Source: an uncultured Clostridia bacterium (lineage in GTDB: Bacteria > Bacillota > Clostridia > TANB77 > CAG-508). Taken from it: a stretch of DNA of 64,000 nucleotides. Location of the stretch: positions 1 to 64,000 of the forward strand of contig CALXUS010000002.1 in the NCBI GenBank assembly GCA_944391745.1. Reading direction: 5' to 3'. Position 1 is the first letter of the stretch. Each line of letters opens with the position of its first letter. This document shows, in pieces, positions 13,901 to 56,074 of this stretch. A program made the translations under genes and the position numbers. The notes under the pieces were generated by a model. It ran no database searches. It was not told the origin of the DNA and saw nothing but the letters and a program-made list of their open reading frames with translations.

Positions 13901-14194
13901 ACAATAAAAGTATTAGGATTTTATGATAAAGAAGTATATGACTATATTTCTAGAGAAACAATTATTCTTACAATAATAGGAATGCTATTTGGTATAGGTG
14001 GAGGCTATTTCTTAACATTATATATTATAAAAACTTGTGAAATAGATATGCTTATGTTTAATCCGCAAATAACCATTTGGAGTTACTTATTTGGAGTACT
14101 TATTACAGCTGCATTTGCTATTATAGTAAATATAATTACATATTTTTCTTTAAAGAAAATTGATATGATTGAGTCACTTAAGAGTGTAGAATGA
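10904..14194 (+). CDS. FtsX/MacB-type ABC permease with large coiled-coil extracellular insert
   Basis: About 1,096 residues. The ATG at 10904 is chosen over an in-frame GTG at 10895 because GGGG at 10892-10895 is the ribosome site. Layout: helix 1 at about residues 18-38, a folded outer domain, a long Glu/Lys/Gln/Ala heptad coiled coil (about 230-540), three helices (about 560-690), a second helix plus outer domain (about 735-960), and three final helices in an FtsX domain (about 965-1090). Two FtsX-type modules in one chain let a single gene partner the upstream ATPase. The coiled coil could reach through the cell wall. The last codon plus TGA merges into a 60-bp palindrome. Confidence 0.9.
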   Translation: MKKALLKDCFKEIIKGFKRFISILLIVLLGVGFFAGIKATSPDMKATLDKYFDDQNVMDIQIISTLGLTDEDIQELKKLEDIDNAEGTYQTDAIITAGDEQFVVKMESIADSINVLNLIDGRLPENENECVVEERFLEGTNYKIGDTIEVQVDNITDDDGNEINLLKNNVLQIVGIVDSPMYISTDRGSTKLGSGVINYYLYVYAGNINTNIYTNIYLTVKGAKNLRCYKDEYEDKVQSAEDKIEEIADSRKEARYTALYDKANQKFQDAKNEFETQKTDGEKELQDAENEINSAKKELENGRDELAANRNSANKKFADAAQQLEDAKKVLQDNEQTFNNSKQEAENQINQYEESLKQLKAIQTQYNSLKTTLSNDEDETKKLTEELQTLDEVEDAERIEEINAQLTELNQEIAKIQAGLLVIDNQLSAQGITDINQTVTETDSALQSAKNKLQEGQNQIDSAKRELEAQEQQLNQTKNSTYSQLNAAQSKLNSSEKQIEEAEVELNNARDEFNSKIADAEKKLDEAEEEVNSIERPTWYILDREQNAGYVSYIQDTDRVANLAQVFPIVFFIVAALISLTSMTRMVEEQRVQIGTLKALGYNKIQIASKYIIYATLATIIGGMIGIFIGFSLLPKVIANIYAMVYDIPEVILEFNMTYATIGMLAAMICTIGATIFSCYKELKQKPATLMRPKAPKPGKRVFLEHITFIWKRMKFTTKVTTRNIFRYKKRFMMTIIGVGGCTALIIAGFGLRDAITGMIPSQYGKIDKYEISISLNEEYKNEDLENIDNIISGYEQSESILNANVQSVTIDKDDNTQSIQLIVPQNIGELSNFIVLQSRTNNDEKYTLNNDGVVITEKLSKLLDISVGDEIKLVNADDKECNVKVTGITENYIYHYIYMSPELYNQLYNTRIGYNVIYVNAPEMSEEEEDNLGKQILQNKDYISGVTFMSNTEGIFSEIMDNMDLVVWILIISAGLLAFVVLYNLLNANITERIRELATIKVLGFYDKEVYDYISRETIILTIIGMLFGIGGGYFLTLYIIKTCEIDMLMFNPQITIWSYLFGVLITAAFAIIVNIITYFSLKKIDMIESLKSVE

Positions 14195-14252
14195 TGAATT
14201 TGGGGACACCTTCCAAAAACAGCTGTTTTTGGAAGGTGTCCCCAAATTCATC
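14193..14252. repeat. 60-bp perfect palindrome (GGGGACACCTTCC family, copy 1)
   Basis: Bases 14193-14252 equal their own reverse complement exactly, centred on the AGCT at 14221-14224. Each arm carries GATGAATTT, the core GGGGACACCTTCC and AAAAACAG. It starts inside the stop codon of the ABC permease and fills the gap between that gene and convergent ytxC, so it may also end transcription both ways, although no long T run follows. Related copies lie at 44.4, 44.6, 51.9 and 54.9 kb. Confidence 0.95.
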
Positions 14253-44256: not shown

Positions 44257-44286
44257 TTGACTTTTTTACATAAAACGTTGTAAAAT
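44257..44286 (+). promoter_or_regulatory. Sigma-A promoter of the ileS leader
   Basis: TTGACT (44257-44262) and TAAAAT (44281-44286), spacer 18 bp, placing the start near 44293 at the T-box 5' end. Confidence 0.8.
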
Positions 44287-44292
44287 AGTCAT

Positions 44293-44626
44293 ATCATATA
44301 TAAAAACTATATATAAGACACGGTAAATAGATAAGCCTTTTAAGAGAGCTAGTGGTGGTGAGATGCTAGTAAGAAACTATTTATTTATTATCACTTATAT
44401 GTTGCTAAAATGAAAGCAGCCAGTCTTGGATGTTTTTGGGGACACCTTCCAAAACAGCTAATTAAGAAAAATTCATTAAAGAATATTATGAGATTTGTTA
44501 TTAGTTTTAGCCGTAAATCTGCGTTAAAGATATTAAAGAGAAAAGAATAAGAAATAATATAATAAATTCTTTTAAATTAGGTGGTACCGCGGAAAGACTT
44601 CGTCCTATATGGATGGAGTCTTTTTT
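44293..44626 (+). promoter_or_regulatory. T-box leader of ileS, specifier ATC (Ile)
   Basis: Stem I is closed by ATATAAG (44311-44317) with CTTATAT (44394-44400), then TAAATAG (44324-44330) with CTATTTA (44377-44383); its apical part carries GAGAGCTAGTGG and GGTGAGATGCTAG. The 10-base right side of the specifier loop (44384-44393) places the codon ATC at 44390-44392, Ile. The T-box proper AGGTGGTACCGCG is at 44579-44591, and the terminator AAAGACT/AGTCTTT (44593-44599 with 44617-44623) ends in T6. Uncharged tRNA-Ile would favour the antiterminator and expression of ileS. A palindromic element interrupts the linker between stem I and the T-box. Confidence 0.92.
44428..44459 (+). repeat. GGGGACACCTTCC family, copy 2, inside ileS T-box leader
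   Basis: A single 32-base arm with GGATGTTTTT, the core GGGGACACCTTCC and AAAACAGCT, able to form only a short bulged hairpin (TGTTTTTGG with CCAAAACA). It lies between stem I and the antiterminator domain. Confidence 0.85.
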
Positions 44627-44635
44627 AGATTTTTG

Positions 44636-44737
44636 GGAGGTTGTTTTTGGGGACACCTTCCAAAAACAGCCGATAAAAGTAAGATGTTTTCGGAAGGTGT
44701 CCCCAAAAACAACCCAAAACAGCCCAGAAAACATCCA
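44636..44737. repeat. GGGGACACCTTCC family, copy 3, between ileS T-box terminator and ATG
   Basis: Two 21-bp perfectly complementary arms (44641-44661 and 44692-44712) enclose 30 bases. Extra half-arm fragments (AAAACAGC, AAAACATCC) trail to 44737. The element sits after the T-box terminator and before the ileS ribosome site AAGGAGG (about 44748). Confidence 0.92.
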
Positions 44738-44760
44738 AAAAATATTAAGGAGGTAAAATT

Positions 44761-47517
44761 ATGGAAAAAGAAAAGAAAGATTACAGTCAAACACTTAACT
44801 TACCAAAAACAGATTTCCCAATGAGAGGAAATTTGCCTGAAAAAGAGCCAGGTATATTAGAGAATGTTTTTGAAAATGGTTTGTATGAAAAGATTTTAAA
44901 GAAAAATGAGGGGCATCAAAGTTTTGTACTACATGATGGACCTCCTTATGCAAATGGAGAAATACATGCAGGTCATGCCTTAAACAAAATTCTAAAAGAT
45001 ACTATTGTTAGATATAAGTCAATGAAAGGCTATTATTCACCATACATACCAGGTTATGATACTCATGGTATGCCAACTGAAAAGAAAGCTATTGAAAAAT
45101 TAGGTCTAGATAGAAGCAAAATTCCAGTTACTAAATTTAGGGATACTTGCCAAGATTTTACTAGAAACTATAAAGACATTCAAACAGAGGGATTCAAACG
45201 TTTAGGAGTTTTAGGAGATTGGGAGCACCCATATATTACTTATGATCCTAAAATGGAAGCTAGACAAATTGGCGTATTTGGAGATATGTATCAAAAAGGA
45301 TATATATATAAGGGATTAAAACCAGTTTATTGGTGTACTGACTGCGAAACAGCACTAGCTGAAGCAGAAATTGAATACAAAGATGATGAAGCAACTTCTA
45401 TATATGTTAAATTCCCAGTTGTTGATGGAAAAGGCATATTAGATGATGAAAATACTTATATAGTAATTTGGACAACTACTCCATGGACATTACCTGGAAA
45501 TGTTGCAATCACAGTAGGACCAGATTTTGAATATAGTTTAGTAAAAACAAATGTTGGAAACTTAGTAATGGCAAGTGATTTAGTAGAAAAAGTTATGAAA
45601 CTTGCTGAAATAGAAGATTACAAAGTTTTAAAAACATTTAAAGGTGAAGATTTAAAAGGAGTACAATGTAGACATCCATTCCTAGAAAGAAATTCAGTAG
45701 TAGTTTTAGGCGGAGAAGACGGAGTTAATGTTACATTAGAAGAAGGTACTGGAGCCGTTCACACTGCACCTGGATATGGTAAAGAAGACTATTTACAAAG
45801 CCTAAAAGATGGTCTTGAAATAAAAGTTGCAGTAAATGACAAAGGTGTTCAAACAGAAGAAGCAGGACCTTTTGCAGGAATGTACTATGCTAAATCAAAT
45901 AAGGAAATAACAAAATGGCTTGAAGAAAATGGTTACTTATTAAAAGCAGTTAAATTAGTTCACTCATATCCACATTGCTGGAGATGTAAAAAGCCTATCA
46001 TATTCAGAGCAACACCACAATGGTTTGCATCAATAGATGGCTTTAGAGATGAAGTTCTAAAAGCTATAAAAACAGTTAAATGGCATCCAGCATGGGGCGA
46101 AGAAAGAATGACTGAAATGATAAAAGGCAGAAATGACTGGTGTATATCTAGACAACGTACATGGGGTGTTCCACTTCCAATATTCTATTGTGAAGAATGT
46201 GGAGAGCCTTATGTTACAAAAGAATCTATAAAGAAAATCCAAGATATATTTGGAAAAGAAGGTTCAAATGCATGGTGGGCAAAAGAAGTAACAGAGCTTA
46301 TGCCAAAAGGCGCAAAATGTGCTAAATGTGGATGCACACATTTCAAAAAAGAAACAGATATAATGGACGTTTGGTTTGATTCAGGTTCAACACATCAAGG
46401 AGTTTTAGTTGAAAGAGGAATAAGCTATCCAGCAGATATGTATCTTGAAGGAAATGACCAATATAGAGGATGGTTCCAATCATCACTTCTTACATCTGTT
46501 GCAACAAATGGAATAGCTCCATATAAAGAAGTATTAACTCACGGATTTGTAACTGATGGACAAGGAAGAAAAATGTCTAAGAGCCTTGGAAATGGTGTAT
46601 CTCCAATAGATGTATGCAATAAATATGGCGCAGACATACTAAGACTTTGGGTACTTTCAGCTGATTATTCAATGGATGTAAACTTATCTGATGATATATT
46701 AAAAGGAATCTCAGATGTTTATAGAAAAATAAGAAATACAGCTAGATATATATTAGGAAATACAAATGACTATGACCCAGAAAATCCAGTTGCTTATGAA
46801 GATTTAATGGAAATAGACAAGTGGGCATTAACAAGACTTAACAAATTAATTCGTGATTGCACAAAAGATTATGATGAATATGATTTTGCAAATTGCTATC
46901 ACGATATAAACCAATTCTGTGTTGTAGATATGAGTAGTTTCTACTTAGATATAATAAAAGACAGATTATATACATCAAAAGCTGATTCGGTTGAAAGAAG
47001 AGCAGCTCAAACAACAATGTATTATATCCTAGACGCATTAGTAAAAATATTAACACCAATGACTTCATTTACAGCAGAAGAAATTTGGAAAGCTATGAAG
47101 CATACTGCAAAAGAAAATGTAGAAAGCCCAATGCTTGCAGATTATCCAACTCCAAACGATAAGTGGGATAATAAAGAATTATCTGCAAAATGGGATAAAA
47201 TTATAAAACTAAAAGATGTAGCTTCAAAAGAACTAGAACTTGCAAGAGCAAATAAAACAATTGGAAATTCACTAGATGCAAAAGTTACAATTTATGCAGA
47301 AGGTGATGAATACAAGTTCTTAAAAGAAAATGAAGAATTAATAAAATTAGTTTTAATAGTTTCGGGCTTAAAGATAGAAGAAAACAAACGTAAAGAAGAA
47401 ACTATGGGCATCAAGGTTGAACATGCTGATGGTGAAAAATGTGAAAGATGCTGGATGTATGATGAACATACAGAAGATGGATTATGCCCAAGATGTAGAG
47501 AAGTTTTAGAAAAATAA
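44761..47517 (+). CDS. ileS: Isoleucyl-tRNA synthetase
   Basis: 918 residues, class I. It charges tRNA-Ile. The HIGH-type motif GEIHAGHAL is near residue 66, the editing (CP1) domain with WTTTPWTLPGN near 240, and the KMSKS motif GRKMSKSLGNG near 603. A C-terminal zinc motif CERCWMYDEHTEDGLCPRC ends the protein, confirming the bacterial IleRS subtype. Its leader is a T-box with an Ile specifier, so expression answers to tRNA-Ile charging. Length and frame are intact. Codon use is richer in TCA/GGA than average but not foreign. Confidence 0.98.
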   Translation: MEKEKKDYSQTLNLPKTDFPMRGNLPEKEPGILENVFENGLYEKILKKNEGHQSFVLHDGPPYANGEIHAGHALNKILKDTIVRYKSMKGYYSPYIPGYDTHGMPTEKKAIEKLGLDRSKIPVTKFRDTCQDFTRNYKDIQTEGFKRLGVLGDWEHPYITYDPKMEARQIGVFGDMYQKGYIYKGLKPVYWCTDCETALAEAEIEYKDDEATSIYVKFPVVDGKGILDDENTYIVIWTTTPWTLPGNVAITVGPDFEYSLVKTNVGNLVMASDLVEKVMKLAEIEDYKVLKTFKGEDLKGVQCRHPFLERNSVVVLGGEDGVNVTLEEGTGAVHTAPGYGKEDYLQSLKDGLEIKVAVNDKGVQTEEAGPFAGMYYAKSNKEITKWLEENGYLLKAVKLVHSYPHCWRCKKPIIFRATPQWFASIDGFRDEVLKAIKTVKWHPAWGEERMTEMIKGRNDWCISRQRTWGVPLPIFYCEECGEPYVTKESIKKIQDIFGKEGSNAWWAKEVTELMPKGAKCAKCGCTHFKKETDIMDVWFDSGSTHQGVLVERGISYPADMYLEGNDQYRGWFQSSLLTSVATNGIAPYKEVLTHGFVTDGQGRKMSKSLGNGVSPIDVCNKYGADILRLWVLSADYSMDVNLSDDILKGISDVYRKIRNTARYILGNTNDYDPENPVAYEDLMEIDKWALTRLNKLIRDCTKDYDEYDFANCYHDINQFCVVDMSSFYLDIIKDRLYTSKADSVERRAAQTTMYYILDALVKILTPMTSFTAEEIWKAMKHTAKENVESPMLADYPTPNDKWDNKELSAKWDKIIKLKDVASKELELARANKTIGNSLDAKVTIYAEGDEYKFLKENEELIKLVLIVSGLKIEENKRKEETMGIKVEHADGEKCERCWMYDEHTEDGLCPRCREVLEK

Positions 47518-47534
47518 ATTTGGATGTTTTTGTA

Positions 47535-47566
47535 AACCGTTCCAATTTTAGGAACGGTTGTTTTTT
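47535..47566 (+). terminator. Terminator after ileS
   Basis: A 9-bp perfect stem AACCGTTCC (47535-47543) with GGAACGGTT (47551-47559), followed by GTTTTTTA. The preceding GGATGTTTTT resembles the flank of the palindromic elements but lacks their core. Confidence 0.9.
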
Positions 47567-47618
47567 ATTTAGTTATTATCAAAGTTGAATATATATTTAT
47601 TTTGTAAATTGATAAAAA

Positions 47619-47647
47619 TTGACAATAAAAATATTTTATGATAATAT
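47619..47647 (+). promoter_or_regulatory. Sigma-A promoter of the PfkB-family kinase gene
   Basis: A perfect TTGACA (47619-47624) and TAATAT (47642-47647) with a 17-bp spacer, about 35 bases before the ATG at 47681. Confidence 0.85.
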
Positions 47648-47680
47648 TACTAAAAATTTACTGTAAAGGAGTGCATACTT

Positions 47681-48643
47681 ATGCAAAAACAATCTAGCAT
47701 ACGGTTCGCATGTATAGGAGATCTTGTAGCTGACTACTATTACTATGGTAATGTATTAACAAATGTAGATGGAGGTAGATCAAAATTTAATGATTTGGCA
47801 AACTTGGGCAAACTTGGAAATGAATGTGTTACATTCTCTACGTGTAGTAATTCTCAAATAGGGGAAATGTTGTGTATTGGACTTCAACGGTGTAATGTTA
47901 ATACATCTTATGTTCAAAAATTAAATGTACCTAGCAGAATATATAATCTTTTAGCAAAAGGGAATGGAGAATATTTATGTACTAAAATTTGTCCTAAATG
48001 CGGAAGAACTACATGGTATGAAGAATCTTTTACAAAATATGATAAAGTGCATGATTTAATAAGAGACAATGACGTTTTTATTTTTGATTCAATTAAGCCA
48101 GAAGATTTAGAAAATATGTCTCAACTTATTTCAAATGATAAAGTGCTTGACTTAGGCAGTACAAGTTACTTATCAAAAATATCTTTTGAAAAATTAAAGA
48201 GCATATTGCAGAATGGATACGAAATTGTTCAAATCAATAAAAAAGTTGCACAATATTTAATTAAATGTTTTAAACTTAATGAACTTGGGCAATTAAAGAA
48301 AGTTATAAGATGCAAATTATTAATTATTACGTTGGGAAACGCTGGAGCATATTTTTTTACGGCAACTAATAATTATAAAAAAATTCTGGATTTTCCGTCT
48401 AATGAGGTCGATACTCTCGGAGCAGGTGATGCATTTTTCTCTACATTTATTGATGGATATTACAAAAATAATAAGGAAGTTAATCAAGATTTTATTGATT
48501 TTTATTTTGAACAGGCTACTAGGATTACTTCAAAAGTAGTTCAGTCTTTTGGAGGGAGGGGGCATCTATATTCGAAAATAAAAATTAAGGAAAAGAGCAA
48601 TACTTGTGTATGTCAAGATTTTGAAATTCAAAATGGGAGGTGA
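47681..48643 (+). CDS. PfkB-family carbohydrate kinase
   Basis: 320 residues. The PfkB signature DTLGAGDAFFSTF at 244-256 includes the anion hole GAGD and catalytic Asp 250; the N-terminus FACIGDLVADYYYYG holds the first family motif. An extra Cys cluster (ICPKCGRTTWYEESF, C104 and C107) in the lid region is unusual for this family. The product phosphorylates a sugar or nucleoside; substrate unknown. A 7-bp GC hairpin (GGGAGGT/ACCTCCC, 48635-48652) spans its stop codon. It opens the 47.6-52 kb block. Confidence 0.85.
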   Translation: MQKQSSIRFACIGDLVADYYYYGNVLTNVDGGRSKFNDLANLGKLGNECVTFSTCSNSQIGEMLCIGLQRCNVNTSYVQKLNVPSRIYNLLAKGNGEYLCTKICPKCGRTTWYEESFTKYDKVHDLIRDNDVFIFDSIKPEDLENMSQLISNDKVLDLGSTSYLSKISFEKLKSILQNGYEIVQINKKVAQYLIKCFKLNELGQLKKVIRCKLLIITLGNAGAYFFTATNNYKKILDFPSNEVDTLGAGDAFFSTFIDGYYKNNKEVNQDFIDFYFEQATRITSKVVQSFGGRGHLYSKIKIKEKSNTCVCQDFEIQNGR

Positions 48644-48652
48644 ATACCTCCC
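48635..48652 (+). promoter_or_regulatory. GC hairpin across the kinase stop codon
   Basis: GGGAGGT (48635-48641) pairs with ACCTCCC (48646-48652) around GAAT, overlapping TGA 48641. With no U-tract it is not a clear terminator; it may modulate translation or decay of the phosphatase gene that begins 21 bases later. Confidence 0.45.
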
Positions 48653-48672
48653 TTATCTTAAAAGGAGAAAAA

Positions 48673-49407
48673 ATGTATTATAGGTATAAAAATAAAGAAG
48701 TTTTAAAAGAATTGAAATCAGAATATCCTTTTTTACACAATGTAAATATTTATTTAACTAGACATGGAGAATCACAAGGAAATGTGATGCAAGATAAAGT
48801 AATAAATGAGCAAGCTAATATTTTGCCCGAAGAAAGGATTGCTGACTACAAATTAAATTTAACTTTAAAAGGAGAAAAACAAGCTAAAATACTAGGAAAA
48901 AATATTAATGAAATAATCACAAAAAATAATATGGATAAAGAAAAAATTTTAGTACTAGTTTCTCCGTATGAAAGGACTAGGAAAACATTTGAAATTGCAA
49001 ATGAAATAATAGGCTTTGATTTTAAAAAAATATTTGTGTTAAATTCATTAAGAGAGCAATCATTTGGGGCGTTTGATTTTGTAAGTAGGAAAAGGAAAAA
49101 ATCAGAATATCCAAGAGAATATTCTGAATATATAAGAAATGATTTACATTTTTTTAGGCAACAATATTTAGGAGAATCACCTGCAGATGTATGTGATAGA
49201 CTTTATCAAGTTTTATTTTTTATAAAAGAATATTTAGAAAAAAATTCTATAGAGAATATATTTATCTTTGGTCATGGATGTGCTAATAAATGTTTGATAA
49301 TGGATATTTTTAACTTACCTCCAGAATTCTATGATGATTTTCAAATGAATACTAATTGCTCAATTATATGCATAGAAAAAGGAATTTGGAGAGGGATTAT
49401 AGATTAA
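48673..49407 (+). CDS. Histidine phosphatase (phosphoglycerate-mutase-like)
   Basis: 244 residues from ATG 48673, where AAAGGAG lies 6 bases upstream; an in-frame ATG at 48640 sits inside the kinase gene and has no such site. The phosphohistidine motif is TRHGESQGN (R30, H31, G32). The second active-site region is SLREQSFGAFDF near 122-133 and the second His is FGHG near 199-202. The family includes mutases and sugar phosphatases. Its 3' end overlaps the convergent gene on the minus strand by 11 bases. Pairing with a PfkB-type kinase suggests action on the same sugar phosphate, which is inference. Confidence 0.85.
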   Translation: MYYRYKNKEVLKELKSEYPFLHNVNIYLTRHGESQGNVMQDKVINEQANILPEERIADYKLNLTLKGEKQAKILGKNINEIITKNNMDKEKILVLVSPYERTRKTFEIANEIIGFDFKKIFVLNSLREQSFGAFDFVSRKRKKSEYPREYSEYIRNDLHFFRQQYLGESPADVCDRLYQVLFFIKEYLEKNSIENIFIFGHGCANKCLIMDIFNLPPEFYDDFQMNTNCSIICIEKGIWRGIID

Positions 49408-49867
49408 GAAATAATTTGTAATAATATGAAATTGGCTTACTAGAGATAGCTTGGATAAAGTTATCAACACCTGAAATACTTAATACTTTTAATGTTCCTA
49501 CATCAAACTTAACAACTTCCCATAATTCCTTAGGAATTGTAATTTTATATTTATTAATCAAATAACTACTTAAAATATTATAATCTTTATAAATGTCTTT
49601 AGACCAATCTCTTACAATATTTTTATAAAAAAAATAATCAGTTATCAAATGGATAAAGTATCCTTTTTCAAAATCATTTTGATTAGGATATTGTTTGAAG
49701 AACATGTTAAAATCAGGAGATTTGCTACTTCCAAAGTGGGAATCAATTCCTTGTTTTTTTAGTAAATCTGGTATAATTGTACCTCTTATAAAAGATTGTT
49801 CATCTTTAATAGCATTACTATTTATATAATTTTGCGCAATAGATAAATGAATTAAATAACCTGGCAT
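49397..49867 (-). CDS. Possible zinc-dependent phospholipase C / S1-P1-like protein
   Basis: 156 residues. The N-terminus MPGYLIHLSIAQNYI, then GTIIPDLLKKQG, then FEKGYFIHLITDYFFYKNIV, matches the general plan of small zinc phospholipase C-like proteins in which spaced His and Asp residues bind zinc. No signal peptide is visible, so the location is uncertain. The Shine-Dalgarno is weak (AAAGGAAA about 15 bases away). It is convergent with and overlaps the phosphatase gene, and is divergent from the glycosyltransferase. Function tentative. Confidence 0.6.
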   Translation of the reverse strand: MPGYLIHLSIAQNYINSNAIKDEQSFIRGTIIPDLLKKQGIDSHFGSSKSPDFNMFFKQYPNQNDFEKGYFIHLITDYFFYKNIVRDWSKDIYKDYNILSSYLINKYKITIPKELWEVVKFDVGTLKVLSISGVDNFIQAISSKPISYYYKLFLNL

Positions 49868-49954
49868 AATAAATTATAATTTCCTTTCATGGAATATTAT
49901 AATACAAATAAAGATAATTTTCAAATATTGTATGATGTAGAGAGGAGTTTGAAA

Positions 49955-51127
49955 ATGGAAAGAGAAGAATTATTTAAAAAAATAGATTCAGTTATGAATG
50001 AAGCGTTTGAAAACATGGAAAAAAGTGAAGACTTAAAACAAGTATATAATAAAATAAGAAAAAATTTTAATGAAGATGCAGATCTTTTAAGAAAAATGCT
50101 AAAAGAAGAACTAGACAGATGTTATAAAACTATCGAAAACAAAAAAATAATTACTGATAAAGTAGAAGATAAATCCATAATAAGTGACTCAGATCAAGAA
50201 AAACATGATATATTTGTAATAATTCCAATATTTAATGCAACAGATGAACAAGCAGAGGAGTGCATTTATTCGGTTATGGATAATTTTCTTGGATTTGACT
50301 ATAAAATATTAATAATATCCAATAGAATATTGCATATATTTAATGAAGAAATTTTTAAAAATACATCGCATTATGTAGTTTATAAAAATTTATTTTCTTT
50401 ACCTGAAGCCTACAATGAATTAGTTGGTTATGCTAAAGAGTATCAAAAGGATAAAAATTCAATGATTTGTCTAATGGATGATGATGCATATATTTTCACT
50501 GGTCAAAACGAAAAAATAAAAAGAAATATAGATTTGTTAAAAAATGATAAATATATAGCAGTAAGTGGACATTATTATGATACATCTCCAACAAAAACAA
50601 ATTTTCAAAGAATGATTAATGTGAGTCATAAATATAAGTTTGTAAAAGAGTATAGAAAACCATATTGCCATGGTGGAGCTTGTTTTTTTATAAAAATAAT
50701 TAATTTTCCACATACAGGATTACCACTTAATGGCCTCGGAGGTATAAGTATTAATATTTTAGAAATTAATAATATAAGTAATGAAAGAAAGGAATGGTTT
50801 TTGTATAATAATCCAGAGCTTAAAGTCTTTCACCCTAGAAAAAGAAATTTGTTTGCGTGGATTACGACTTATTTATCTTATGAAATGGCTTGGGGGAGAT
50901 CATTAAGTAGATTAGATGAAAATAAAGAACGTATATGGAGACAAGAATTAAAAAAGGATTCAGATGCTAGGGTTAATGGACTTTATAAAAATTTAAGAAT
51001 TAAAAGTGAAAGAATTTATGTCTTAGGAAATATATATCTTACTAGGTATTTAAAACCTCTATTAAATAAAAATATACAATATGGTGATTTAAAAAAATAT
51101 AATGTAAGTACACATATAAATTTATAA
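49955..51127 (+). CDS. Family 2-like glycosyltransferase
   Basis: 390 residues from ATG 49955, with AGAGGAG (49941-49947) upstream; an in-frame ATG at 49889 lacks a ribosome site. Residues about 60-330 form a GT-A fold: DIFVIIPIFNATDEQAEEC near 85-103, the metal-binding MDDDAY near 175, and SGHYYDTSPT further on. The N-terminal 80 residues are a helical extension. The donor and acceptor are unknown. It is followed by a ParB-like gene after 14 bases, so they are probably co-transcribed. Confidence 0.85.
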   Translation: MEREELFKKIDSVMNEAFENMEKSEDLKQVYNKIRKNFNEDADLLRKMLKEELDRCYKTIENKKIITDKVEDKSIISDSDQEKHDIFVIIPIFNATDEQAEECIYSVMDNFLGFDYKILIISNRILHIFNEEIFKNTSHYVVYKNLFSLPEAYNELVGYAKEYQKDKNSMICLMDDDAYIFTGQNEKIKRNIDLLKNDKYIAVSGHYYDTSPTKTNFQRMINVSHKYKFVKEYRKPYCHGGACFFIKIINFPHTGLPLNGLGGISINILEINNISNERKEWFLYNNPELKVFHPRKRNLFAWITTYLSYEMAWGRSLSRLDENKERIWRQELKKDSDARVNGLYKNLRIKSERIYVLGNIYLTRYLKPLLNKNIQYGDLKKYNVSTHINL

Positions 51128-51141
51128 TAAGGTGATAAAAT

Positions 51142-51879
51142 ATGAAAGTTGTTTATAATAGAAAAAAATGCTCCTTTGATGTTGATGGGTCACAAATTAA
51201 AGAAATAGATTTTAATTTTATAAGTTGCAATTTATTTAGAGTACAAGAGGAATATGAATATTTAAAATTAAAAGGTGTAAAACCTATAAAAAAGGAATTA
51301 TTAAAAGATGATAATGGAAGAATATATATATATGCAAAAACAAATGATGGACATATATTTATAAAAATAAATGAATTTGAAAAATCTTTTTCGATTGATG
51401 AATTAGTAAAGCTTAATGATTTATTGTCAAAAAAAATAGATGAGGCGTATAATTTAAAATATGATATTAAAAATTTTGATCCAATATTTTTGTCTATTTT
51501 TTTATGGAAAAGACTACATAAAATAAAGGATATAATTGTAGAAGATGAATATATAGATAATTTATGTGTGCCAAAAGGAAAAAACGGTGTACAAAAGATA
51601 ACTGATACACCATATTATAAAACTTTGGAAGTGGGAAAAGAAATTGATATAAAATCAGTATTTAACTCAAACCATGTAGATGAAACTCATTATGAAAGAA
51701 TAATGAAAATTAAAAAGAGTATAGAAGATAATGGATATCCATATAAAAATCAATATATAATTGTTTATAATAATGAAAACAAAATTAGAGATGGACAACA
51801 TCGAGCATGTACATTAAAATACTTATATGGAAATATAAAGGTTCCAATTATGAGAATTATATTAGAAAATAATAGTTGA
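51142..51879 (+). CDS. Protein with C-terminal ParB/sulfiredoxin-like domain
   Basis: 245 residues. The C-terminal motif IRDGQHRACTLKYLYG (D217 G Q H220 R221) is the ParB/sulfiredoxin nucleotide-binding hallmark; the linked SYVDNGYPY-type helix precedes it at about 195. The N-terminal 150 residues are of unknown type and show no DNA-binding helix-turn-helix. Such proteins occur in polysaccharide loci and do not imply plasmid partition. The final TGA is followed directly by palindromic element copy 4. Confidence 0.75.
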   Translation: MKVVYNRKKCSFDVDGSQIKEIDFNFISCNLFRVQEEYEYLKLKGVKPIKKELLKDDNGRIYIYAKTNDGHIFIKINEFEKSFSIDELVKLNDLLSKKIDEAYNLKYDIKNFDPIFLSIFLWKRLHKIKDIIVEDEYIDNLCVPKGKNGVQKITDTPYYKTLEVGKEIDIKSVFNSNHVDETHYERIMKIKKSIEDNGYPYKNQYIIVYNNENKIRDGQHRACTLKYLYGNIKVPIMRIILENNS

Positions 51880-51976
51880 TGAATTTGGGGCTGTTTTTGG
51901 GGACACCTTCCAAAAACAGCTAGATGAATATTGATGAATTTGAGGGATACGGCCTGTTTTAGGTACGTGTCCCTTA
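51877..51976. repeat. GGGGACACCTTCC family, copy 4, starting at the ParB-like stop codon
   Basis: It begins with TGATGAATTTGGGG at 51877, the same 14 bases that begin copy 1, again using the TGA as a gene's stop. Inside, GCTGTTTTTGG (51890-51900) pairs with CCAAAAACAGC (51910-51920). A second unit begins TGATGAATTTGAGGG near 51932; its hairpin AGGGATACG/CGTGTCCCT is a diverged core. The remainder to 52016 holds nothing I can name. Confidence 0.9.
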
Positions 51977-52016
51977 AAACATCTATTGAAAAATTGATAA
52001 TTGATATAGTAATAAG

Positions 52017-52045
52017 TTGAAATTTACATAAATATTTGCTATAAT
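52017..52045 (+). promoter_or_regulatory. Sigma-A promoter of the DEIH-box helicase
   Basis: TTGAAA (52017-52022) and a perfect TATAAT (52040-52045), spacer 17 bp, about 75 bases before ATG 52122 and its AAGGAGGA site. Confidence 0.85.
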
Positions 52046-52121
52046 AAAAAAAGCACATTGAAAATTTTATAAATCTCTTTCATTGTTTCTAAAATTAGCA
52101 TAATTTAAGGAGGACGTTATC

Positions 52122-54758
52122 ATGTTGACAGTGCAAAATTACCGTGAAGAGATTGTTAATTCTGTTTTGAACAATAGAGTTACAATTGTAACAGCAGAAA
52201 CAGGATCTGGCAAATCCACACAAATCCCTCAATACTTGACAAAGTACTTTAAGCAAATCATCGTAACTGAACCTCGGAGAATGGCGGCAAAAACGCTTGC
52301 TATTCGGGTTTCTGAAGAGATGGGAACAAAACTTGGTGAGGAGGTTGGATATAGGACAGCTTATGACCGGTGTGCATCTCCGGAAAGTAAAATAGTTTAT
52401 TGTACAGATGGGTTACAACTTGTGCGTTCGCTTCTTGGGAGCGATGACACAAGAAGTACTCTTCTTGTGATAGACGAAATTCATGAATGGAACAACAATC
52501 AGGAGCAACTGATTGCTTGGACTAAGCTGAAGAACGTAAGCACTCTTATAATGAGTGCTACAATGGATGTGAAGAGCTTAATGGAATATTATAAAGATTC
52601 TGTTAATGCAATTTACGTTCCAGGTAGTCAATTTCATGTAGAAATGGAGGAAAGAGGAAGTTCGGAGTTTATCAATGCTATTAAAGAGAATATTTCTGAA
52701 GGAAAGAATATTTTGGTGTTCCTTCCTGGCAAAAAAGAAATATTTATGACGATTGATGAACTCAACGGCGAAAATGCTATTGTGCTCCCCCTTCATGGCG
52801 AAATGGATTGGGAGGAACAAAGCAAATGTTTTGCTCAATATGACTTGCCGAAAGTGATTTGCGCAACTAATGTTGCTCAAACTTCGATTACTATTCCTGA
52901 TATCGATGTGGTTGTTGATCTTGGACTGGCCAGAATTTCTGACGTAAGAGATGGGATTCAGGGCTTGTTCCTTAGAAATATCAGTCAAGCTGATATTAAG
53001 CAAAGAGCAGGTAGAGCTGGCAGAACGAAGGATGGCAAATACATTTTGTGCTCTGATAAGCCGATTTCTCAAAGAGAAGAATATCAGAAACCGGAAATTG
53101 AGAGGAGCCTTTTGGAAAGAGTCGTTCTTCAGTTTGCCAACATTGGGCTCGATGCAGAGGTGGTGGAATTTTTTCATCAGCCTCCTAAGGAAGAAATCGT
53201 TCGCGCTAAGAAAGAGTTAATTAACCTTGGCGCTATGGACGATAAGAACAACGTTACTGCTATCGGCAAAGAGATGGCAAAGCTTCCTCTTAATGCACAG
53301 TCGGCTCGGATGATTGTTGAAGCTGAAAAACTGGGCGTTACCGAGGATGTGATTAAAATCGCATCTATTGTTGAAATTGGTGGCTTACTGCTGAAAAATC
53401 AAAGATACTTTTGCTATACAAGCGAAAGTAGAAGTGATTTGTTGGCTGAACTGGACGTGTGGGACAAAGTAAATAGTCAGGAAGAATTTGATTTTGAAAA
53501 AGGAGGCATTAATAAAAAGAACTTTTTCAAAATTAAAGAGCACATTCAGTTGGTAATGAATGCCATAGACGGTATTGTCACCTTGAACTCTTCTGGTAGT
53601 AGGGAGGATGTTCTTAAAGCTTGTTTGAGTGGTTTGGCTACCCATATTTATTCAAGACATTGGAATTGTTTTGTCGACAATAACTGGGACGAGAGAAAAC
53701 TCGATCGTAAATCTTGTGTTGAGATGTTCAGCTCTGACTTCTTGATTGGGATTCCCAAAACGATTGAATTTAAGAATCGGTTCGGTTATTTGTCCAAAAT
53801 GGACCTAATTACATTTGCAACTGCGGTTGATGGTGATACTGCTTTGAAAATTGTTCCGAAGAGCTACATTTCAAAAGAAATAGTAGAAGAGTATTCCGAA
53901 AACGAAGATGCAGTTGTGAAGAGAGTAATTACTAAAGTCTTGGATAAGGCTGTTAAGGAAGAACGTATCGTTGATTATGATAATCCGCGGTATGATAGCC
54001 TTAAACGGCAGTATGAAGAGATGAAAAAATGGAGAGAATCTTGGATGGGAAGAGAAGCTTTTGAACAAAGCTATAATTCGAATAAGCTTTCCAGACAAGA
54101 AGAAGTCCGCGTAAATGGAAAGTTGTATTCTGTGAACTACGAAAGCGGTGAACCTTATATTACCATTTATAACAGCGGTGAGCTGTTTGAAATTAATGAT
54201 GAGAATATTACTTTGCACGACGGAACTGTTGTTACTGTAAAGTGTGCAGGAAAGTCTAGTAAGAGTGTTAGCTCTCTGAAAAAGATGGTAAAAGAATATG
54301 TTTCCGTTATCGTAAGAAAAAAGAATAGAGATCGGCTTAACGCAAAGGTAGTTAACTCTATTCAGAATATTGACAGCGTTAAAGGAGAGCTGGGAAAGCT
54401 AACCTTTAACGGTATCATGTTTGGATATTCCGGAATCAACGTTGAAGGTTATGGCTGTTTAAAGGTTCGCAAAGATGGTCAAATCGTTTTGGACATCGTT
54501 AGCGATGAAGAAATGGCTAAAGCGCAGACGAATGAGGCACTGAAAAATCTTGCTATGAAAAAGCTGAAAAAGGATTATGTTGATTCTAAATTCAGCCATC
54601 AAACTGGCAAGAAAAAGAAAGTCTTGACTTCGAAAGAAGAAACAGTGAGAGAGGATTTTTGGCATCTGGCTACAGATGTCATTGCCTCGATTAATGTTGA
54701 AAACGTAGGCGAAAGCCTGCAGTTTATTCAAGACTATTATGTAGAGCTTATGGGTTAA
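52122..54758 (+). CDS. HrpA/HrpB-like DEIH-box ATP-dependent RNA helicase
   Basis: 878 residues. Superfamily 2 motifs: AETGSGKST at 25-33, TEPRRMAAKTLA near 49-60, the Walker B DEIH at 118-121 (most family members have DEAH), SATM near 147, and RAGRAGRTKDGKYI near 295. The family's winged-helix, ratchet and C-terminal OB-type regions follow to about 700. The last 150 residues are unusual for HrpA. Base use differs clearly: CTG, CTT, CCG, CGG, AAG and GAG codons are much more frequent than in neighbours, which suggests acquisition from another host or phage. Bounded by its own promoter and terminator. Substrate RNA unknown. Confidence 0.88.
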   Translation: MLTVQNYREEIVNSVLNNRVTIVTAETGSGKSTQIPQYLTKYFKQIIVTEPRRMAAKTLAIRVSEEMGTKLGEEVGYRTAYDRCASPESKIVYCTDGLQLVRSLLGSDDTRSTLLVIDEIHEWNNNQEQLIAWTKLKNVSTLIMSATMDVKSLMEYYKDSVNAIYVPGSQFHVEMEERGSSEFINAIKENISEGKNILVFLPGKKEIFMTIDELNGENAIVLPLHGEMDWEEQSKCFAQYDLPKVICATNVAQTSITIPDIDVVVDLGLARISDVRDGIQGLFLRNISQADIKQRAGRAGRTKDGKYILCSDKPISQREEYQKPEIERSLLERVVLQFANIGLDAEVVEFFHQPPKEEIVRAKKELINLGAMDDKNNVTAIGKEMAKLPLNAQSARMIVEAEKLGVTEDVIKIASIVEIGGLLLKNQRYFCYTSESRSDLLAELDVWDKVNSQEEFDFEKGGINKKNFFKIKEHIQLVMNAIDGIVTLNSSGSREDVLKACLSGLATHIYSRHWNCFVDNNWDERKLDRKSCVEMFSSDFLIGIPKTIEFKNRFGYLSKMDLITFATAVDGDTALKIVPKSYISKEIVEEYSENEDAVVKRVITKVLDKAVKEERIVDYDNPRYDSLKRQYEEMKKWRESWMGREAFEQSYNSNKLSRQEEVRVNGKLYSVNYESGEPYITIYNSGELFEINDENITLHDGTVVTVKCAGKSSKSVSSLKKMVKEYVSVIVRKKNRDRLNAKVVNSIQNIDSVKGELGKLTFNGIMFGYSGINVEGYGCLKVRKDGQIVLDIVSDEEMAKAQTNEALKNLAMKKLKKDYVDSKFSHQTGKKKKVLTSKEETVREDFWHLATDVIASINVENVGESLQFIQDYYVELMG

Positions 54759-54778
54759 AAGAAAGAGAGGCGATAAGA

Positions 54779-54820
54779 AAACTAGTTCCTTTAACAATTG
54801 TTATAGGAACTAGTTTTTTT
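54779..54820 (+). terminator. Terminator after the helicase
   Basis: A 12-bp stem AAACTAGTTCCT (54779-54790) with AGGAACTAGTTT (54805-54816), an inner palindrome TAACAATTGTTA in the loop, and a T8 tail. Confidence 0.93.
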
Positions 54821-54853
54821 TAGTAATAAAATAGTAATAAATCTTTAAATTAC

Positions 54854-54882
54854 TTGATTTATCAAGCAATTTATTGTAAACT
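54854..54882 (+). promoter_or_regulatory. Likely sigma-A promoter of queA-tgt
   Basis: TTGATT (54854-54859) and TAAACT (54877-54882) with a 17-bp spacer. The transcript would include palindromic copy 5 as part of its leader before queA at 55049. Confidence 0.6.
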
Positions 54883-54915
54883 ATATAAGTAAATGTTGAA
54901 TCGGAAAGAGGATTT

Positions 54916-55024
54916 TGAAGATGTTTTTAGGGATGTTTTTGGGGACACATCCCAAAAACATCTAAAAATAAAAATACAATAAGCTGTTTTTGGAAGGTGT
55001 CCCCAAAAACATCCTTCCAAAAAA
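54916..55024. repeat. GGGGACACCTTCC family, copy 5, upstream of queA
   Basis: Outer arms of 18 bp (54931-54948 and 54997-55014) are perfect reverse complements carrying GGATGTTTTTGGGG and GTGTCCCC. A nested smaller hairpin (GATGTTTTTGGG with CCCAAAAACATC) lies within 54932-54962. It would form in the leader RNA just before the queA ribosome site. Confidence 0.92.
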
Positions 55025-55048
55025 GCAAAAAAGAAAGAAGGCTTTTTA

Positions 55049-56074
55049 ATGGAATTAAAAGAATTTGATTATTATTTACCAGAGGAGTTAATTGCACAAG
55101 TACCAATAAAAAATAGAGATGAATCAAGATTAATGGTGCTTAATAGAAAAAATCAAACAATAGAGCATAAAATTTTTAAAGATATAATTGATTATTTAGA
55201 ACCAGGTGATTGCTTAGTAAGAAATAATACAAAAGTTATACCAGCAAGACTTTATGGTAAAAAAGAAACTGGAGCAAATGTAGAATTTGTACTTCTTAAA
55301 AATATTGAAGGTGATATTTGGGAGGCTATGGTAAGACCAGGTAATAAGCTTCATGTAGGAGCAAAAGTTATATTTGGTGATGGACTTTTAAAAGCAGAAA
55401 TACTTGAAACTTTACCAGATGGAACAAGGAAAGTTAAATTTACCTATGACGGAATATTTAATGAAATACTTGACCAAATAGGACTTATGCCACTTCCACC
55501 ATATATTCACGAGAGTTTAAAAGATAATGATAGATATCAAACTGTTTATGCAAAATATGAAGGTTCAGCAGCAGCTCCTACAGCTGGTTTGCATTTTACA
55601 CCAGAATTACTACAAAAAATAGAAGAAAAAGGAATAAAAATAGCAAATGTAACACTTCATGTTGGAATAGGAACATTTAGACCAGTAAAAGAGAAAAATA
55701 TTGAAGACCACCACATGCATACAGAGCATTATTATATAAAACAGGAAGATGCCGATAAAATAAATGAAACAAAAAAATCTGGGAAAAGAGTTATTTCAGT
55801 CGGCACAACTTCTTGTAGAACTCTAGAAACTGTGGCAGATGAAAAAACAGGTTTAGTTAAAGCATGTGAAGGAGATACAGGAATTTACATTTATCCGGGA
55901 TATAAATTTAAATGTATAGATGGACTGGTTACAAACTTCCATCTACCTGAATCAACATTGTTAATGCTTGTTTCAGCTTTAGCTGGAAAAGATTATATTA
56001 TGAAAGCATACAATGAAGCAGTAAAAGAAAAATATAGATTTTTTAGTTTTGGAGATGCAATGTTAATATTATAG
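55049..56074 (+). CDS. queA: S-adenosylmethionine:tRNA ribosyltransferase-isomerase QueA
   Basis: 341 residues. It makes epoxyqueuosine by transferring the ribosyl part of SAM to preQ1 on tRNA. Family signatures: [11 protein letters not shown]-type start, DESRLMVL near 27-34, GGYG-like turns, [11 protein letters not shown] near 210, HTEHYYI near 226, and [13 protein letters not shown] near 315. AAAGAAGG precedes the ATG. Next to tgt after 9 bases, as is conserved. No preQ1 riboswitch is seen. Confidence 0.96.

Follow-up and report, generated by a model that had tools for sequence, protein, structure and literature searches.

Putatively mobile palindromes, probably tolerated, in the T-box leader of ileS in an uncultured Clostridia bacterium

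The window, by which we mean the whole 64,000-nucleotide stretch of DNA analysed here, belongs to the 1.65-Mb genome of an uncultured Clostridia bacterium (G000) and carries a gene that we take to be ileS, judging by its T-box specifier and a likeness to the family. The gene is preceded by a T-box leader, within and just downstream of which lie members of a repeat family, here called family A, defined by a GGGGACACCTTCC core. The principal features are as follows, with the basis of each assignment in brackets where one applies.

14193-14252, no strand assigned: copy 1, a family A inverted pair whose arms touch (core search)
44257-44286, forward strand: promoter-like pair TTGACT / TAAAAT with an 18-nt spacer (consensus match only)
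44300-44610, forward strand: ileS T-box leader, from stem I to the antiterminator (Rfam RF00230 match)
44390-44392, forward strand: ATC specifier, followed by A (read from the sequence; leader alignment)
44405-44411, forward strand: 5' strand of stem II (partner 44504-44510)
44418-44496, forward strand: 79-nt insert in the apical loop of stem II, containing copy 2 (Rfam alignment, leader alignment, folding, genome matches)
44428-44459, forward strand: copy 2, a single terminal repeat GGATGTTTTTGGGGACACCTTCCAAAACAGCT of 32 nt (repeat search)
44504-44510, forward strand: 3' strand of stem II (partner 44405-44411)
44579-44592, forward strand: T-box motif AGGTGGTACCGCGG (sequence, leader alignment)
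44591-44625, forward strand: intrinsic terminator or terminator-like stem of the T-box (terminator search)
44639-44714, forward strand: copy 3, an inverted pair of terminal repeats (arms 44639-44668 and 44685-44714)
44749-44753, forward strand: Shine-Dalgarno sequence GGAGG of ileS (sequence)
44761-47517, forward strand: ileS, isoleucyl-tRNA synthetase, 918 aa
51889-51922, forward strand: family A single repeat (core search)
54924-55021, no strand assigned: family A pair, one arm with two core mismatches (core search)

A covariance search, proposed as a check in the first-pass annotation of this DNA, gives a sub-threshold T-box match for the leader. Model RF00230 matches it over all 219 model positions at 82.5 bits (E 2.3e-18) but does not reach the gathering score of 93, so that a scan at the gathering threshold misses it. 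Other T-box leaders that lack a long insert likewise score below this threshold, while the ileS leader of a congener, G028, scores 111.4. The specifier that fits the gene (ATC), the T-box motif and the terminator stem are all three present, and the sequences of helix, specifier, T-box and terminator have been retained. The promoter-like pair upstream is of a kind of which the shuffled region averages 2.5 matches.

Copy 2 lies between stem I and the T-box, as first described, and more exactly at the apex of stem II: both the Rfam alignment and an alignment of 18 ileS leaders from one genus (G000 and 17 congeners) put the extra bases in its terminal loop. This loop measures 92 nt in G000, 85 in G012, 39 in G017, 26 in G027 and 9-18 in the other 14, and the spacing is thus not common, 16 of the 18 loops falling within 9-39 nt. 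The leader had been said to hold two palindromic copies; both repeats are there, but copy 2 consists of one terminal repeat and has no full inverted pair. It is a decayed or partial element. Positions 11-46 of the insert have 39 matches in G000, its own site included, while the remaining 47 nt of the 79 are AT-rich, are not accounted for by the repeat and return weak matches only (the best, for insert positions 43-79, has E 1.5e-5 and lies in G011).

The helix beneath this loop is kept and covaries. Across the 18 leaders, 96.8% of the 126 stem II cells are paired, with double changes at five of the seven pairs; sliding the partners by one to three columns lowers pairing to 58% or less. Covariation as high was reached by 0 of 500 shuffles on four of five measures and by 1 of 500 on the fifth, although kinship alone can lift related sequences above shuffles in the absence of structure. 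All seven pairs are present in G000, which alone shows A-U at columns 112/213; 15 of the rows show U-A there. This double change keeps the helix.

The position reported for copy 3, between the terminator and the Shine-Dalgarno sequence, was borne out. Its arms, each of 30 nt and 97% complementary, stand 16 nt apart, and its 3' end lies 34 nt before GGAGG and 46 nt before the ATG. A hairpin ahead of the start is indeed predicted, self-folding within the predicted full leader, though with 23 plus 6 pairs rather than the 21 bp first given. The Shine-Dalgarno sequence lies outside this hairpin and may pair weakly with nearby bases: in four folding windows its unpaired probability per base is 0.18-0.73, and in three of the four it is partly paired. 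A terminator search found no terminator-like site on the sense strand of either copy 2 or copy 3. Matches of copy 3 to miRNA families were set aside as chance hairpin matches, far below the gathering scores.

Both copies belong to a family that is abundant in this genome. Allowing up to two mismatches, the GGGGACACCTTCC core occurs eight times in the window, where shuffles average 0.04; exact copies number 79 in the whole of G000, in which the reversed pattern occurs 0 times; GGGACACCTTCC is found exactly 86 times, at 58 places. A longer family A core marks 54 places, 25 of which are inverted pairs with starts less than 250 bp apart by plain count. The dispersed copies occur as singles and dimers, and in the listed copies the head is GGGGAC and not of the GTAG or CGTC type. 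A crude ORF call puts 23 places between tandem genes, 11 between convergent and 4 between divergent ones; 14 overlap ORF calls and 2 are at contig ends. Some of the overlapping calls are spurious, for example an antisense call over copy 3. The outer arms vary among copies (TGTTTTT, TGCTTTT, TGAATTT, TGCTTTC), often matching between the two ends of a given copy. Further tandem pieces with that copy's arm variant stand just outside, as if ends had been copied from each other.

Several copies are associated with RNA genes and leaders elsewhere in G000. Just beyond the end of the window, at G000:C2:64015-64092, the spacer that separates the pheS T-box terminator from the start of pheS holds a family A pair. 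The glyS T-box leader (G000:C16:27076-27447) is bracketed by inverted family A repeats, one before the promoter region and one just before the Shine-Dalgarno sequence, and a tRNA-Arg(acg) gene is likewise bracketed by an inverted pair (G000:C6:25821-26075).

Within the genus, family A was found in 3 of 31 genomes, with 79, 2 and 1 copies, and another repeat, GGGGACGGTCC, in 11 of 31, with 237 copies in G028 and 0 in G000. A 25-base family A pattern matched 44 stretches of named genomes, all of them MAGs titled as uncultured Clostridia, Clostridiales or Clostridium, with roe deer omasum and sheep jejunum among the sources; one of the 44 has the same ileS place as G007 of the genus.

G000 has two Y1_Tnp genes, and one of these, on contig C10, links family A to a transposase. 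It lies between GGGGACACCTTCC (C10:64895) and its complement (C10:65829), with GGGGACACCTTCC in one flank and GGAAGGTGTCCCC in the other, as inverted repeats that carry the GGGGWSAS motif. The protein scores 44 bits against Y1_Tnp (cut-off 23), 76.2 bits against the NCBIfam model REP_Tyr_transpos (NF047646; below the cut-off of 80) and 19.7 bits against IS200. Its sequence contains NNHAHF and YIHNNP, in which we take HAH and Y to be the Y1 motif residues. A table in the excerpted text of PMC6006769 gives the form YIHYNP. The protein has a C-terminal extension; a Pfam search with E up to 10 returned only Y1_Tnp, with no helix-turn-helix match in the C-terminal part, and a comparison with solved structures gave no match at E 0.001. 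At the point where family members begin, its frame offers no ATG, GTG or TTG; the codon found there is ATA after ATT, downstream of GGAGG. Because the protein falls below the NCBIfam cut-off and the matching stretch has no start codon, the enzyme may not be active.

Relatives of the C10 protein were recovered by protein search in 12 of 17 chosen genomes. The flanks of seven relatives were compared: five enzymes of 53-75% identity are flanked on each side by GGGGACACCTTCC or a variant differing from it by one base, and 38%-identical enzymes in G028 and G003 have GGGGACGGTCC on both sides. Transposase and repeat families thus go together across uncultured Clostridia. A further relative, of 49% identity, has two stop codons inside the match (G007:C7:6916-7542).

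The surroundings of ileS have a history of their own. Window positions 44740-47516 (ileS) share 97.3% identity with contig C3 of G028, and the next shared gene, at 55020-56074, shares 95.7%, while collinear blocks elsewhere mostly show 72-85%; by this comparison of sequences, the ileS region has likely undergone recent exchange. About 7.5 kb of G000 between ileS and the next shared gene (47517-55019) are missing from G028. At the other end of the window, positions 1-300 contain 36-bp tandem repeats in an open frame, encoding repeats of YGQPVDQFNGQN.

We favour, with a probability of roughly 0.7, the interpretation that copies 2 and 3 belong among non-autonomous mobile palindromes of a TIRYT/REPIN-like kind, spread by a Y1 transposase, that landed where the length of a T-box varies freely and left a switch that probably still senses. 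A Y1 tyrosine transposase with the same repeats at its own ends, either the C10 enzyme or a past relative, would have copied the repeats around G000, as the excerpted text of Bertels and Rainey 2011 proposes for REPINs (PMC3116915). The two landing sites, one at the apex of stem II and one in the stretch from terminator to Shine-Dalgarno sequence, would both be free in length, and insertions hitting the T-box core would have been removed by selection. Given that the core sequence is kept, sensing of uncharged tRNA-Ile has most likely persisted. Copy 3 would be confined to transcripts that read through, where it would form a hairpin ahead of the ribosome-binding site, and the overall effect of the two insertions may be near neutral. 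The mobile palindromes in the ileS T-box are, in short, probably tolerated: a known kind of element in an unusual place.

The same stretch of the leader admits of other readings. That copy 2 is simply the T-box's own normal extension of stem II, an objection raised along with the original claim, draws some encouragement from G012, where an insert of 74 nt stands at this point and shares its first six bases, AGCCAG, with that of G000. The two inserts, however, align no better than chance, 162 of 2000 shuffles reaching their alignment score, and a common origin could not be taken as proven. The loop lengths, 39 nt or less in 16 of the 18 leaders, and the recurrence of the repeat all over the G000 genome rule against a stem belonging to the T-box itself and make this reading scarcely credible. 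Damage to the switch, also unlikely, deserves more attention: the large loop of copy 2 might let the strands of stem II pair elsewhere, weakening the T-box and altering basal read-through while leaving ileS expression still sufficient. In unconstrained folding of the whole leader, G000 has a stem II probability of 0.0, the lowest of the 18 (the other 17 have 0.08-0.995), and joining the flanks without the insert raises it to 0.23-0.26 per pair; the lower RF00230 score of G000 compared with that of G028 tends the same way. The first-pass claim that the core of the leader is unbroken consequently stands for its sequences but not for this predicted fold. Folded alone, the stem II segment of G000 has a probability of 0.78, third lowest of the 18. 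Against damage, the minimum-energy folds of G001, G015, G005 and G017, leaders without inserts, also contain 0 stem II pairs, whereas G012, with its 85-nt loop, retains the stem, and the double change in G000 preserves the helix. Unconstrained folding, moreover, pairs the G000 specifier with and without the insert, and so does not model the tRNA-bound state; for this reason whole-leader minimum-energy folding was discarded as informative evidence. We would treat the stem II folding result as a warning and not as proof of damage.

The palindromes might alternatively have been kept because they are useful, the hairpin of copy 3 protecting or tuning the read-through mRNA and different lineages having gained spacer hairpins independently. 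Folding z-scores of -3 or lower in 10 of 26 ileS spacers, several of them with unrelated sequences, speak for this; among them are GGGGACACCTTCC in G000, GGGGACGGTCC in G028 and G018, GGGACGCTCC in G012 and GAATAGGAAAAATC in G008. The palindromes of these spacers elsewhere are unrelated: GGGGACGGTCC types in G028 and G018, with a degenerate form in G025 and a variant form in G027, besides GGGACGCTCC in G012, GGGACGCCCC in G017 and GAATAGGAAAAATC, which is present in G008 and again in the glyS spacer of G028. Two related species hold different repeat families in the same spacer. Family A, furthermore, is present in the spacers of three of the five T-box leaders found in G000 at E 0.001 (ileS, glyS, pheS), and a crude Poisson estimate for its occurrence in at least two of the other four is P 0.0045, a figure that depends on extrapolating the intergenic length beyond the window and on a group picked after ileS had been seen. 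A stricter palindrome test, by contrast, is passed by 7 of 26 ileS spacers, a share no higher than that of intergenic regions in general, of which 7 of 34 pass in the window and 16 of 52 in an 80-kb stretch of G028. In the closest cluster 6 of 8 leaders pass; other T-box spacers seldom score (glyS 1/10, pheS 1/15, thrS 2/11, aspS-like 0/7). G028 is longer by at least 40 nt at 19 of 28 collinear junctions, so that such growth is general in that genome. In view of the strict test and of this growth in G028 we also make no claim that insertions favour the ileS spacer as a hot spot, and retention for usefulness seems to us very improbable. A broader proposal, that mobile palindromes with terminal inverted repeats supply new T-box parts by repeatedly entering aminoacyl-tRNA synthetase leaders at the stem II loop and at the spacer from terminator to start, some altering read-through or mRNA stability, is one that we hold to be quite doubtful; if true, some unexplained T-box stem II insertions would be former mobile elements.

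Tolerated mobile palindromes, our preferred reading, have close counterparts among known systems, and yet searches of the open-licence literature turned up no report of a T-box containing a mobile element or REP, whether at the apex of stem II or elsewhere. The excerpted text of De Nocera et al. 2013 (PMC3733652) describes TIRYT genes with GGGGWSAS repeats, some families of which are moderately abundant, in singles, dimers and groups, and that of a later classification (PMC6006769) assigns 20 of 26 TIRYT genes to subclass 2.1. As far as these excerpts go, the G000 system resembles TIRYT/TIRtron in having a Y1 tyrosine transposase gene between GGGGWSAS inverted repeats, which GGGGACAC fits, in its dispersed singles and pairs and in a repeat family that differs with the enzyme. 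Subclass 2.1 is marked by a C-terminal helix-turn-helix, for which the C-terminal part of the C10 protein gave no Pfam match. The G000 system departs from TIRYT/TIRtron in general in that its repeats also lie inside a T-box leader. With the REPINs and RAYTs, as portrayed in the portion of PMC3116915 cited above, this system shares short extragenic inverted doublets capable of forming hairpins, a related transposase and decayed singles, while the family A head is GGGGAC and not GTAG/CGTC, and its spacers range from none to several hundred bp. The BOX/SPRITE elements of Streptococcus pneumoniae, in the relevant extract of PMC10969869, are likewise small mobile elements discussed alongside T-box or terminator motifs; by that account their motif is part of the element, whereas in G000 the element lies in an existing T-box.

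For the T-box itself, the extracted sections of PMC7583486 give the stem II region as about 10 to 200 nt and mention insertions of unknown structure and function in every domain, for which a possible contact with tRNA is supposed. The stem II insertion of G000 holds a recognizable, putatively mobile repeat, which offers a simple and testable alternative to such contact. Compared with the class I T-box as outlined in those sections and in a part of PMC10482949, the ileS leader has the same stem I, ATC specifier, stem II, IIA/B region, T-box and terminator; what sets it apart is a 92-nt apical loop of stem II with a putatively mobile repeat, together with a putatively mobile hairpin between terminator and Shine-Dalgarno sequence.
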